DNA from: Chitinophaga pinensis DSM 2588
GTDB lineage: Bacteria > Bacteroidota > Bacteroidia > Chitinophagales > Chitinophagaceae
Length of the DNA stretch: 64,000 nucleotides
Assembly (NCBI RefSeq): GCF_000024005.1
Contig: NC_013132.1
Span: 248,001-312,000, forward strand
Reading direction: 5' to 3'
A program made the translations under genes and the position numbers. This document shows, in pieces, positions 17,908 through 20,605 of this stretch. Numbering within the stretch: position 1 is the first letter of the stretch; every line of letters starts with the position of its first letter. Under the pieces are notes generated by a model. The model was not told the DNA's origin. It worked only from the letters and a program-made list of their open reading frames with translations, and made no database searches.

Positions 17908-18957
17908 ATGCGAAATTACATTAATAAATTACCCGGTAACAGTCAGTGGATATTATCCGCTCTCATCCTTATATCCTGTTTAGCTGCCTGTAAGCACAAA
18001 AACGTGCCAGATGTAAGTCATATTGCCGTGAATGTTCAAATTGACCGTTTTGACCAGGCATTGATCAAACTGGATACCAATAACATCCAGGCGGGGCTGC
18101 AAGAACTGGATAAGGCATATCCCGTATTTCTGCCTGCTTATATCGAGCATATTATGAATTTCGGCCCTTACAACGACAGCAGTAAAATGATACAGCTGCA
18201 AAGCAGGATGTTGATCGGGAATGCCGATTATCGCGTTTTACAGGATTCCATTAATGTGCATTTCCCTAAACTGGATGCACTGGAACATGAGCTGGCGCAA
18301 AACTTCCGCTATATAAAGTACTATATTCCTTCTTTCCCTATTCCCAGCAGGGTAGTGGCATTTAGTTCTGTGATCAGTAACTATGGCGCCGTTACCATTG
18401 ATTCTGTGGTGGGTATCGGACTGGATATGTACCTGGGAAAGGATTTCCCAATATATGGCATACTGCCGGATTATCCTGTCTATATGATCCGCAAATTCTC
18501 TCCTGAATACATTACGACCAATGCTATACAGGCACTGGCACAACAGGTTTATCCTGGTGCTGCCCCTGGGGACCAGCTTGTCATACAACTGGTAAAGGCC
18601 GGCAAGCTACAGTATTTCCTGGAACAGGTGATGCCTGAAACAGCAGATAGTATCCGGCTGGGTTACACTAAAACCCAGATGGAATGGTGTAAAGATAATG
18701 AACAGCTGATCTGGCAGTTTTTCGTGCAACAGAACCTGTTGTATAAGGCCGACTGGCAAAGCAACATGCATTACATGAATGATGGCCCTTCTACACAGGG
18801 AATGCCTGAAGAGGCTCCTGGCAGAATCGGGACTTTTGTAGGCTGGAGAATCGTAAAAGAATACATGGATAATCATCCGGAGGTAACCTTGCAAAAACTG
18901 ATGGAAGAGAAAGATGCGATGAAAATATTTTCGCAGTCAAAGTACAGACCTAAATAA
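17908..18957 (+). CDS. gldB: Gliding motility lipoprotein GldB
   Basis: GldB is a membrane lipoprotein required for gliding in Flavobacterium and linked to type IX secretion. The 349-residue product has a lipoprotein signal ending LISCLAAC. It then follows the family pattern: VQIDRFDQALIKLD, FLPAYIEHIMNFG, the central IDMYLG-like GIGLDMYLGKDFPIYG, and the C-terminal GRIGTFVGWRIVKEYM and IFSQSKYRPK. The GldB C-terminal block is the clearest match. Neighbouring nadE agrees with gene order in other Bacteroidota. A terminator follows at once. Confidence 0.88.
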   Translation: MRNYINKLPGNSQWILSALILISCLAACKHKNVPDVSHIAVNVQIDRFDQALIKLDTNNIQAGLQELDKAYPVFLPAYIEHIMNFGPYNDSSKMIQLQSRMLIGNADYRVLQDSINVHFPKLDALEHELAQNFRYIKYYIPSFPIPSRVVAFSSVISNYGAVTIDSVVGIGLDMYLGKDFPIYGILPDYPVYMIRKFSPEYITTNAIQALAQQVYPGAAPGDQLVIQLVKAGKLQYFLEQVMPETADSIRLGYTKTQMEWCKDNEQLIWQFFVQQNLLYKADWQSNMHYMNDGPSTQGMPEEAPGRIGTFVGWRIVKEYMDNHPEVTLQKLMEEKDAMKIFSQSKYRPK

Positions 18958-19007: not shown

Positions 19008-19089
19008 ATTTCTATCAATCGTATTTTACAACATTACATCTGCATCATGTATATCATCTTCAGTTACAAAAAACTTGTTTATTATTCCG

Positions 19090-19160
19090 CACTGGCTTAA
19101 GGACTCGAACCTTAATGAACGGGGTTGGAAGCCGTCATCTTACCATTAGATGAAATCAGT
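19090..19160 (-). tRNA. tRNA(Trp)-like gene, type A copy 1 (anticodon CCA), probably decaying
   Basis: Read on the minus strand, the 70-base body plus discriminator G folds as a cloverleaf: acceptor ACTGATT against AGCCAGT, D arm ATCT/AGAT with G18-G19, anticodon stem ACGGC against CCCGT with loop TTCCAAC (positions 34-36 CCA), a 4-base variable loop and T arm TAAGG/CCTTA. Two flaws are visible: an A-C mismatch at acceptor pair 5-68 and C-C at 31-39. The 3' half matches type B, so it looks like a recombinant or converted copy. The loop also contains CTTCCAA, which would read as Gly(TCC) if shifted by one, but the stem then does not pair. CCA is not encoded. Confidence 0.65.
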
Positions 19161-19203
19161 ATTTATGTACATTCCGTTCCGCATATACAGACACGGAACA
19201 CAG

Positions 19204-19274
19204 CACTGGCTTAAGGACTCGAACCTTAATGAATAGTTTTGGAGACTATCATCTTACCATTAGATGAAACCAGT
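19204..19274 (-). tRNA. tRNA(Trp)-like gene, type B copy 1 (anticodon CCA)
   Basis: The minus-strand sequence folds completely: acceptor ACTGGTT/AGCCAGT (one G-U), T8, D arm ATCT/AGAT with A14, G18-G19 and A21, anticodon stem ATAGT/ACTAT with loop CTCCAAA (CCA at 34-36), a 4-base variable loop and T arm TAAGG TTCGAGT CCTTA. Discriminator is G. A1-U72, G73 and anticodon CCA are the known bacterial TrpRS identity features. The rest of the acceptor differs from a usual bacterial tRNA-Trp. It is 44 bases from the type A copy and lacks an encoded CCA end. Confidence 0.8.
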
Positions 19275-19315
19275 AGTAATAACTATTGCACCTCGCATCA
19301 CTGCGAAACACACTG

Positions 19316-19386
19316 CACTGATCTAAGGATTCGAACCTTAATGAACGGGGTTGGAAGCCGTCATCTTACCGTTAGATGAAATCAGT
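19316..19386 (-). tRNA. tRNA(Trp)-like gene, type A copy 2 (anticodon CCA)
   Basis: Same architecture as the first type A copy, but the acceptor is well paired: ACTGATT against GATCAGT with only one G-U. The D arm is ATCTAACGGTAAGAT, the anticodon loop TTCCAAC keeps CCA at 34-36, and the T arm is TAAGG TTCGAAT CCTTA. The C31-C39 mismatch is shared with copy 1, so it is a type feature rather than random decay. Discriminator is G. It is part of a tandem duplication with 19431-19501. Confidence 0.72.
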
Positions 19387-19430
19387 ATTTATGCGCATTC
19401 CGTTCCGCATATACAGACGCGGAAACACAG

Positions 19431-19501
19431 CACTGGCTTAAGGACTCGAACCTTAATGAATAGTTTTGGAGACTATCATCTTACCGTTAGATGAAACCAG
19501 T
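19431..19501 (-). tRNA. tRNA(Trp)-like gene, type B copy 2 (anticodon CCA), first in the array
   Basis: Identical to the 19204-19274 copy except for one base in the D loop (C for T). It is the promoter-proximal gene of the array: its first base follows the T-run of the attenuator terminator by 6 bases. All arms pair (anticodon stem ATAGT/ACTAT, loop CTCCAAA), U8, A14, G18-G19 and the TTCGA T loop are intact, and the discriminator is G. The transcript would need RNase P and CCA addition to mature. Confidence 0.8.
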
Positions 19502-19507
19502 AGTAAT

Positions 19508-19598
19508 AAAAAAAGCCCGATTGGAATACCAATCGGGCCTTAATGTCTTTGTATATCTGACATCACACAGTAATCCGACTGGTATCTTGTTGACACCA
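19508..19598 (-). promoter_or_regulatory. Candidate tryptophan-codon attenuator before the tRNA array
   Basis: Four segments on the minus strand form the classic mutually exclusive set. Segment 1 TGGTGTC (19598-19592), containing the second Trp codon, pairs 7 bp with segment 2 GATACCA (19586-19580, one G-U, 5-base loop). The extended segment 2 GATACCAGTCGG (19586-19575) pairs 12 bp with segment 3 CCGATTGGTATT (19536-19525, two G-U). Segment 3 also forms the 5' arm of the terminator GCCCGATTGG/CCAATCGGGC (19538-19529 with 19524-19515), a perfect 10-bp stem followed by seven Ts. A ribosome stalled at the Trp codons would free segment 2 and allow read-through into the tRNA genes. Confidence 0.75.
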
Positions 19599-19634
19599 TG
19601 ACCACGATTTACTATATGACATGTTTGTTTGCAT
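19563..19634 (-). CDS. Putative 23-residue leader peptide with Trp codons
   Basis: The frame starts at ATG 19634 (or the in-frame ATG at 19622, giving 19 residues) and ends with TGA at 19565-19563. It contains SKSWSWCQQ, two Trp codons separated by one Ser codon, which is a high density for such a short peptide. The stop codon lies 10 bases after antiterminator segment 2, so a ribosome that finishes would cover part of it, as in trp operon leaders. The first ATG begins 5 bases after a TATCTTTG box, so translation may be leaderless. Confidence 0.6.
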   Translation of the reverse strand: MQTNMSYSKSWSWCQQDTSRITV

Positions 19635-19638
19635 AAAA

Positions 19639-19646
19639 CAAAGATA
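19639..19646 (-). promoter_or_regulatory. -7 promoter box for the leader/tRNA array
   Basis: The minus strand reads TATCTTTG, an exact TAnnTTTG match. The upstream -33 position is T-rich but has no perfect TTTG. The expected start of transcription is near 19634. Confidence 0.6.
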
Positions 19647-19726: not shown

Positions 19727-20605
19727 TTATCCGTTGACGGTTTTACCATTCAATACATCCACTACGGCCTCTCCCGGCAGTATTCTATAGACAGGTATAT
19801 TCAGTGCATATCTGTCGCAGAGTTGTCGTATTGCATCATCAATCTGTGCCGCATTATACCTAGATGAGAAATGTCCCAGTATCAATGTTTCAATATTACT
19901 AGCACTCACCATTTCGATCACTTCATCCAGCCGGCTGTGTTTATTTTTATGCGCATGCACTTTGATTTCTTCTTCACGTTCAAGAAATGTTGCTTCATGA
20001 ATCAGGATCTTTGTATCGTCCCATTTATGCAGATCATCAACAGGTGTATCGCCGGAATAACTCAGGATGTTTGTACGCACTTCCATTGTAGTGGCTTCCT
20101 TTCCTTTTTCAATACCGATTTTACGAATTTCTTCTCCTGATAAACCTGCTAGTTCCGGACGCAGTTTTCGTTTCGTCTGATAAATCTTATACCCCAGACT
20201 GCGCGTTATTGCAGGAGGCACTGGTACATGTTCATTACGTACGGGTATAACGAGTATATCATCCTTCACACGAATTTCATCACCTGCTGTAACCGGCTGC
20301 CATACGGTGCCGGTGGTATGCGGATCAAATCTTGCAAAGAATTCATGCATAGCGGGAAAAGACCGTGAATCCCTTGGATAACATATCACAGGATAACCTT
20401 CCCTTGCATTTAACTGATTAAACTGTAATAGTCCGGTAAGATGATCTCTGTCTGCATGTGAGATAAATGCATGTGTGATCTTACGGCTTTTCTGCAAAAG
20501 CGCAGATATCATGCCGTCTCCGGCATCGAGTAAAATACCTAGTTCTTCTATAAAATACCAGCTTGAAAACAGTGCTGTTGAATAGGCTGTAATCGTTAGT
20601 TTCAT
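19727..20605 (-). CDS. rnz: Ribonuclease Z-type metallo-beta-lactamase protein
   Basis: A 292-residue MBL-fold nuclease, expected to trim 3' ends of tRNA precursors, which fits genes that lack an encoded CCA. The metal motif is SHADRDHLTG at about residues 49-58. Further features are the HEATFLEREE segment (about 202-211), HKNKHSRLDEV and the terminal ILGHFSSRY with the second His, all in RNase Z order. The canonical THxHxDH form is somewhat altered (Ser-His-Ala-Asp-Arg-Asp-His). Its ATG shares one base with the stop of the upstream methyltransferase gene, so they form an operon. It lies directly upstream of the tRNA array on the same strand. Confidence 0.85.
   Translation of the reverse strand: MKLTITAYSTALFSSWYFIEELGILLDAGDGMISALLQKSRKITHAFISHADRDHLTGLLQFNQLNAREGYPVICYPRDSRSFPAMHEFFARFDPHTTGTVWQPVTAGDEIRVKDDILVIPVRNEHVPVPPAITRSLGYKIYQTKRKLRPELAGLSGEEIRKIGIEKGKEATTMEVRTNILSYSGDTPVDDLHKWDDTKILIHEATFLEREEEIKVHAHKNKHSRLDEVIEMVSASNIETLILGHFSSRYNAAQIDDAIRQLCDRYALNIPVYRILPGEAVVDVLNGKTVNG

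Follow-up and report, generated by a model that had tools for sequence, protein, structure and literature searches.

Leaders with cognate codons precede tRNA arrays in Chitinophaga pinensis, its relatives and some phages: comparative evidence for ribosome-mediated attenuation of tRNA genes

Why should an attenuator of the kind familiar from tryptophan biosynthesis stand in front of tRNA genes? The question is raised by a locus in Chitinophaga pinensis DSM 2588, whose genome is one contig of 9,127,347 bases and of which a stretch of 64,000 nucleotides (positions 248,001 to 312,000 of NC_013132.1; “the window”) was analysed. Read 5' to 3', the minus strand presents a TATCTTTG box, a 23-codon leader, nested hairpins, an antiterminator, a terminator and then four tRNA-Trp(CCA) genes. 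On comparative evidence, we consider it very probable that this element is a ribosome-mediated transcription attenuator governing the tRNA array. Beyond the window, groups of additional tRNA genes in bacteria of the Chitinophaga family and in some phages are probably controlled by a switch that is turned on by ribosomes stalled at matching codons.

All parts of the element lie on the minus strand. The predicted promoter box TATCTTTG (19639..19646), a putative -7 box of the Bacteroidota type, is placed 4 nt before the leader ATG, and 21 of the 25 leaders in the alignment share its TTTG. The leader frame (19563..19634) encodes MQTNMSYSKSWSWCQQDTSRITV in 23 codons plus TGA, with the ATG at 19634 and the stop codon at 19565-19563; its codons 11-13 (19596..19604) read TGG TCA TGG, so that the Trp codons 11 and 13 are cognate to the downstream tRNA-Trp. 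The outer stem of the 1:2 structure (19560..19622; 19622-19605 with 19577-19560), supported by RNAalifold and covariation, has 18 pairs in the consensus, brings the region around the start of the leader frame together with that around its stop, and carries on top an inner (pause) hairpin, TGGTGTC-AACAA-GATACCA (19580..19598; arms 19598-19592 and 19586-19580). Segment 2 of the antiterminator, GATACCAGTCGG (19575..19586), pairs with segment 3 at 19536-19525, CCGATTGGTATT (19525..19536), which overlaps the 5' arm of the intrinsic terminator (19508..19538). The latter consists of a 10-bp stem (19538-19529/19524-19515), a TATT loop and a run of seven T (19514-19508), and both it and the inner hairpin are supported by sequence, fold and covariation. 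Six bases separate the T-run from the first tRNA gene at 19501. The leader folds with -48.5 kcal/mol (z = -5.85), and none of 200 shuffles was equally good. A preliminary description of this DNA had named the box, the frame with its two Trp codons, the hairpin, the antiterminator and the terminator with its T-run, and all were recovered in place; the three mutually exclusive pairings which it had read there (1:2, 2:3 and 3:4) are present as well, and fold, duplex energies and covariation agree on them.

The four tRNA-Trp(CCA) genes predicted by ARAGORN on the minus strand (19430..19501, 19315..19386, 19203..19274 and 19089..19160, in order of transcription) are supernumerary, since an ordinary-type tRNA-Trp, for which the model gives no leader, is found elsewhere in the genome (L048/L052). 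They diverge from the housekeeping tRNA-Trp, and two of them look imperfect: the second has a divergent anticodon arm with the loop TTCCAAC and, by eye, a C31-C39 mismatch in the anticodon stem, while the fourth shares that anticodon arm, loop and mismatch included, and has an acceptor stem that appears imperfect by eye. The array lies in an accessory slot between conserved chromosomal genes. Upstream, and outside the switch, this slot is flanked by a gene for an MBL-fold hydrolase (19727..20605, minus strand), RNase Z-like with scores below the NCBIfam cut-offs, and on the other side by the convergent gldB (17908..18957, plus strand). The two flanking genes adjoin in 13 of 22 examined loci, the window included, and the slot between them holds a tRNA array in five of the 13. 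Two genomes (G069 and G075) have no intact insert, the former keeping a short remnant that by eye resembles a zeta ORF. Elsewhere the slot holds ORFs that include a zeta-toxin-family protein (by Pfam in G017, alike by eye in G054, G070 and G021) or an ORF pair with a PIN-like protein (G015, 19.1 bits against a Pfam cut-off of 23.6; similar by eye in G016). The array is thus accessory cargo of a variable slot, and the toxin-like genes that sister species have there may hint at its function. The RNase Z-like neighbour was considered as a functional partner and rejected, because by eye it is missing from the ORFs around 14 other leader loci and is a slot flank here. Elsewhere in C. pinensis (C1:3016370-3016630), an odd cluster of tRNA Cys(GCA), Gly(CCC) and Ala(GGC) with unusual sequences was noticed, which has no match to our second covariance model (R2, see below) at E 0.001.

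Is the element conserved? A DNA search of 79 genomes of the genus matched 13, five of which (window included) carry a Trp array of 3-5 tRNA genes at this locus; in three (G016, G043 and G061) the match was due to a leader of this type at another genomic position, and the remaining five matched solely through an ordinary tRNA-Trp gene. The preliminary description had proposed to judge the element by whether relatives keep the leader frame, the pairings and the Trp codons, and all five Trp-array genomes, counting the window, indeed have the SWSW motif, the terminator and the antiterminator duplex. Being kept with the array in four sister species, and having paralogs with matching codons, the leader in the window is more than a chance frame. 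Among the leaders found elsewhere, that of G016 contains LCWC and is followed by tRNA-Trp and tRNA-Cys, and that of G043 contains SSSCYRY and is followed by tRNAs for Tyr, Ser, Cys and Ser. A group II intron match lies immediately behind the attenuator terminator in G061 (L053:2436-2727), a position typical of class C introns, and no tRNA is seen before the contig end.

A covariance model built from the leaders of these 8 genomes (R1) and run on 79 genus and 294 family genomes gave 17 matches with E < 1e-5 outside its training set, and in 14 of these the tRNA genes predicted by ARAGORN start 3 to 221 nt downstream. The other three precede an RNA ligase gene (G075), a tRNA-Phe-like remnant recognised by eye (G067) and an ORF without Pfam match (G142b). 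At L127:4343-4858 in G142, a leader of the tRNA-array type, SYSSSYSSF, precedes an ORF of 171 aa without Pfam or PADLOC match, which is possibly a further member of the regulon. One candidate, G060, was discarded as an array leader, as its R1 match (E 2.7e-5) has no tRNA downstream and is gone in the R2 genus run. C. pinensis itself has a second array at C1:7211025, where the leader TLYSRSLSSYS stands before tRNA Leu(UAA), Ser(GCU) and Leu(CAA).

The second model (R2), built from 25 leaders, was run on overlapping sets of genomes from the order (348), the family (394), the genus (79) and the phylum (395), weak matches with E > 0.001 being set aside. It uncovered arrays such as IQSCIPQPIC before Pro, Gln, Ile(UAU) and Gln tRNAs, HIPHFFPF before Pro, Phe, His, Pro, Phe and His tRNAs, and NNNSNNWQICQW before Gln, Met or Ile(CAU), Asn and Trp tRNAs. 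At E <= 0.001, 19 of the 79 genus genomes have a match, that of G019 being without tRNA and that of G018 lying outside the downstream check; C. pinensis has two, both before tRNA arrays, in a genome with 74 tRNA matches. The arrays found first were mostly for Trp, Cys, Tyr, Phe, Ser and Leu, and the idea that arrays are restricted to A36/UNN-reading tRNAs, for reasons of modification, was abandoned when Pro, His, Asn, Ile and Gln arrays turned up. Two further observations were made with leaders of this kind: G103 has a leader, MKQSNIKTNNCWMYFHIGRA, with a terminator (L183:1501-1640) and no tRNA by ARAGORN, and a weak R2 match (L188, E 6e-4) with the leader MITMKHTKRTIKQS precedes an ORF that by eye resembles aspartate-semialdehyde dehydrogenase, possibly as a Thr/Lys/Ile attenuator.

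In the phylum search, run with a family-trained model on 395 sampled genomes, no tRNA-array leader was seen among the matches outside C. pinensis. The 23 that were read (of 24, L239 being left out) are his- or trp-like leaders, called by eye bar two HMM-confirmed examples, or have no assignment (L235, L236 and L240). Both models likewise detect the his and trp attenuators of related genomes, with His runs before a HisG-like gene and WW or WWW before a TrpE-like gene; in the HMM check of one each, HisG was above the cut-off and TrpE was the best match but below it (first 420 residues queried).

The codons of a leader agree with the tRNAs behind it. Paralogous leaders of similar sequence differ in their codons and have different tRNAs after them, for example Phe codons before tRNA-Phe, Cys-Trp-Cys before Trp and Cys, and Pro/His/Phe before Pro-Phe-His. 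Among 20 pairs of leader and array from bacteria, chosen to be non-redundant, a cognate codon is present among leader codons 7-17 for 46 of 48 array isotypes, the two without match being Met(CAT) in G639 and Leu(GAG) in G107. When leaders and arrays were re-paired at random in 20,000 shuffles, the mean was 25.8 and the maximum 40, so that none reached 46, a figure that is no strict probability as leader/array pairs share ancestry. With Ser excluded, 41 of 43 isotypes are matched (shuffled mean 21.5, maximum 34). When five viral pairs were added and codon 7 was dropped, as it is largely conserved and Tyr in most leaders, codons 8-17 matched 63 of 68 isotypes (shuffled mean 35.8, maximum 50), the misses being Tyr in G011, V241 and V300 in addition to the same Met and Leu. 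Left out of these statistics were orthologs (G068, G036, G001 and G041 of the window array, G068b of G000b, G026 and G056 of G028), leaders without ARAGORN tRNA (G061, G067, G075, G142b, Niastella and G103), the locus L141, which was found by eye, and tRNAs seen by eye or with relaxed ARAGORN settings only (Ser in G190, V242 and V300). Even the choice among Leu codons tracks the anticodon: UUR codons account for 5 of 5 in G000b, G068b and G001c, which have UAA/CAA arrays, and CUN codons for 7 of 8 in G028, G056 and G011, which have UAG arrays. This count includes G000b and G068b, which are orthologs, and leaves aside G026 (no tRNA-Leu by ARAGORN), as well as G107 and those viral arrays in which the two kinds of tRNA-Leu occur together.

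The pairings were examined in the alignment of 25 leaders. In the helices of the 1:2 and 3:4 structure, 90.0% of the cells are paired and 24 of 37 pairs show double changes, figures that are above all 500 shuffles and all slid controls in an alignment that was fitted to that structure; the compensatory changes which the preliminary description had proposed to look for are thus seen in these helices. For the 2:3 antiterminator, which lay outside model building, 76.6% of the cells are paired and the covariation score is above 500 of 500 shuffles and all slides, while the counts are unexceptional, as the number of pairs with double changes was reached in 135 of 500 shuffles and that of further pair types in 56 of 500. 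Duplexes between segments 2 and 3 have a mean of -16.7 kcal/mol with their own partner and of -11.9 kcal/mol with swapped partners; in 8 of 20 loci no swapped partner does better than the own one, in 12 of 20 at most one does, and the lowest rank of an own duplex is 11th. All 20 non-redundant bacterial loci have a predicted leader frame of 18-28 codons, and the exclusive 1:2, 2:3 and 3:4 pairings with terminator and T-run are found. The 2:3 pairing is weak at two loci, where the own duplex comes 11th of 20 (G066) and 9th (G000b) when compared with swapped partners. A terminator search over 28 loci failed at L141 only. In fold models with a ribosome placed on a cognate codon, each of the 20 leaders has one or more such codons at which segment 3 is predicted to be captured (P >= 0.5), with capture down to 0.14 in G028 when the ribosome is on the latest cognate codons. 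With the ribosome on the stop codon, capture of the 5' arm of the terminator has P < 0.2 in 18 of 20. In the model without a ribosome, values below 0.2 are reached in 2 of 20 only (window 0.27), and no firm termination is therefore predicted without translation.

Anatomy, codon matching and conservation are read from the sequences, and from the classical mechanism we infer an order of events. A ribosome would translate the leader directly behind RNA polymerase. With the cognate tRNA plentiful, it would reach the stop codon and cover segment 2, and the terminator would form before the tRNA genes. With the cognate charged tRNA missing, it would stall on the matching codons (here Trp 11 and 13), segment 2 would capture segment 3, and transcription would run on into the tRNA genes, so replenishing the missing species. 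Leaders with several kinds of codons would act as OR gates for several tRNAs. If this is true, the tRNA genes are under autogenous control, the loss of a tRNA prompting its own resupply, and the specificity of the switch would be rewritten simply by changing leader codons. The leader peptide would then be a label of the tRNA shortage that is met, from which one could learn what tRNAs come under attack in natural settings.

The same type of leader is also found before RNA ligase genes. The gene behind the leader in Chitinophaga tropicalis (G075) codes for an RLIG1-type RNA ligase (Pfam PF17720, 35.3 bits with a cut-off of 25), which also matches the RNA ligase PHROG 14301 and the PDB entry RNA ligase1 9c6l (E 3.2e-14), with no match to NCBIfam at E 0.01. 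An R2 leader is found just upstream in 4 of 14 ligase loci of genome contigs, namely in C. tropicalis and three Niastella, with Tyr and Gln codons and in Niastella also Leu and Cys codons. By eye, a leader frame and a terminator are present at two more ligase loci, in Sporocytophaga (L139) and Pseudoflavitalea (L141), the latter with ATA codons, then tRNA-Ile(UAU) and then the ligase. At 7 others of the 14, two of which were also read by eye, no leader was detected by R2. At the one left, in a cyanobacterial contig (Phormidium, NZ_JADEWG010000012.1), the RLIG1-type ligase gene lies inside a stretch of 31 ARAGORN tRNAs.

Searches of viral sequences matched 27 distinct contigs, and on five of these (L241, L242, L243, the contig of L249/L283, and L300) tRNA genes follow directly; L242 and L243 have nearly the same sequence. 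A leader with a matching array is present in L241, L242/L243, L249 and L300, the last of which was found by pattern and has no R2 match at E 0.01. In one viral example, YCNSFSWN stands before Tyr, Asn, Trp, Phe and Cys tRNAs and, by eye, two Ser tRNAs. Genes of phage type lie on the array contigs (endolysin on L241 and L300, primase on L242), and L249 has genes for head morphogenesis and head protease on one side of the array and, about 0.9 kb past the array end on the other side, a ligase gene on the other strand, so that one phage contig carries both a ligase and an attenuated array. Two contigs of 348 and 268 kb share the leader ILSLCLSLSLSLQ (R2 E 0.003, weak), followed by an 80-aa ORF, Leu, Leu, Ser, Cys and Ser tRNAs, and then a ligase gene. 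As any ARAGORN tRNA is present at 4 of 35 viral ligase loci, the link between ligase and array is occasional and not universal. Mobile-element genes are also found near bacterial arrays: that of G175 lies beside an integrase and a phage lysozyme, an integrase is encoded 2-3 kb upstream in G024, and G248 has an ArdC-like gene about 2.5 kb away. One further viral contig (IMGVR_UViG_3300026325_000001) has a 33-tRNA array with a 3' terminator that fits the search pattern, and no R2 match.

What might deplete the tRNA? We regard it as fairly likely that the physiological trigger is the depletion of functional tRNA through cleavage by a toxin, a bacteriocin or a phage-defence nuclease, and as likelier than amino-acid starvation. 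Damage to tRNA is favoured because such a leader also precedes RNA ligase genes and because the module is present on phages and mobile elements; it also fits because a stall cannot tell a missing from an uncharged tRNA, while making tRNA helps only with a missing one. The array and ligase operons would then be replacement and repair operons responsive to tRNA depletion, and the RNA-repair ligase that sometimes lies nearby suggests an automatic system for replacing lost tRNAs. In its wider form, towards which we lean, this would be a codon-addressable response to tRNA damage in Bacteroidota and phages, in which attenuators read which tRNA has been destroyed and switch on its exact replacements or a repair ligase, countering tRNA-cleaving toxins and antiphage defences, so that the phage versions would be inducible anti-defence systems.

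That the same attenuator instead signals amino-acid starvation through uncharged tRNA, the extra tRNA being a by-product or a scavenging aid, is possible but doubtful. The architecture is that of the trp and his biosynthetic attenuators found by the same models in relatives, and a stall would look the same for either cause. However, a lack of amino acid is not relieved by more tRNA, up to five isotypes without shared biosynthesis are mixed in single arrays (ARAGORN; G260, L241 and L300), and the leader type also stands over RNA ligase genes and on viral contigs.

An unlikely alternative to tRNA replacement is that the arrays make decoys or tRNAs with non-translational roles, such as nuclease sponges or donors for tRNA-dependent enzymes. 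The divergence of the tRNA-Trp genes in the window and the anticodon-stem mismatch in tRNAs 2 and 4 would agree with this, but the array tRNAs have the same anticodons, and mostly the same anticodon loops, as the housekeeping tRNAs of C. pinensis (the sole comparison genome), and feedback through cognate codons is sensible mainly if the product decodes those codons. Loops that differ belong to a number of Trp, Leu and Ser(GCT) tRNAs and to isolated cases, including TTCCAAC in Trp tRNAs 2 and 4 of the window. Nuclease-resistant anticodon loops were considered as a general trait of the arrays and rejected, since most loops are unaltered and thus give no general sign of resistant tRNAs.

A leader that senses drugs or stress, as in erm and bmrCD, where any slowdown of the ribosome would open the tRNA genes, is very improbable: antiterminators can, as is generally known, respond to any well-placed stall, but a sensor of general slowdown needs no match of codon to isotype. 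Finally, the doubt voiced in the preliminary description, that the terminator belongs to the transcript of the upstream MBL-hydrolase (rnz) gene and the small frame is due to chance, can for practical purposes be laid aside, as a same-strand gene does lie upstream but leader, box and pairings recur away from it before unrelated arrays with matching codons, and the codon/isotype match and the covariation rule out both chance and an upstream-gene terminator.

Replacement of depleted tRNA through a cognate-codon attenuator, the reading that we prefer, has its closest parallel in the control of amino-acid biosynthesis, for which ribosome-mediated attenuation is textbook knowledge. The attenuators of trp, his, phe, thr and ilv share with the array leaders a leader peptide with cognate codons, the 1:2, 2:3 and 3:4 pairings and an intrinsic terminator. 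They differ in that the array leaders control tRNA genes or an RNA ligase, that mixed codons would sense several tRNAs and that, the controlled genes being tRNA genes, the product restores the signal itself. None of the attenuator or leader families of Rfam reaches its gathering cut-off over the leader (trpB motif 27.9 vs 59 bits, Phe_leader 21.7 vs 55 bits); in the window, tRNA families alone do so. Phage T4 uses the RNA ligase Rnl1 together with Pnkp to repair tRNA cleaved in its conflict with PrrC; here, in contrast, the ligase is of the RLIG1 type (PF17720, PHROG 14301) and, in C. tropicalis and Niastella, stands behind a leader of the tRNA-array type. T-box riboswitches bind tRNA directly and without translation, whereas the array leader would be read by a translating ribosome, and the T-box covariance model has no match at the window. 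Common to both would be a response to tRNA by way of transcription attenuation, as the accessible part of a genome-wide survey of premature terminators describes for T-boxes (PMC2965389); the words “tRNA gene” are absent from that part. The phage arrays described as an anti-defence measure (van den Berg et al. 2023, PMC10264068) and the Mycobacterium tRNA array units (PMC12803027) likewise consist of divergent additional tRNA genes on phages or mobile elements, where several relatives of the window array also lie. The accessible parts of these two reports name no regulation, whereas the arrays described here would be gated by their own cognate codons, and most of their anticodon loops are unaltered, being equal to the housekeeping loops of C. 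pinensis. In the open-licence literature, judged mainly by title and abstract, we found no description of attenuated tRNA or RNA ligase genes with codons that track the isotypes, in bacteria or phages, in line with the earlier view that trp-style attenuation of tRNA genes is undescribed. The mechanism of attenuation itself is known.
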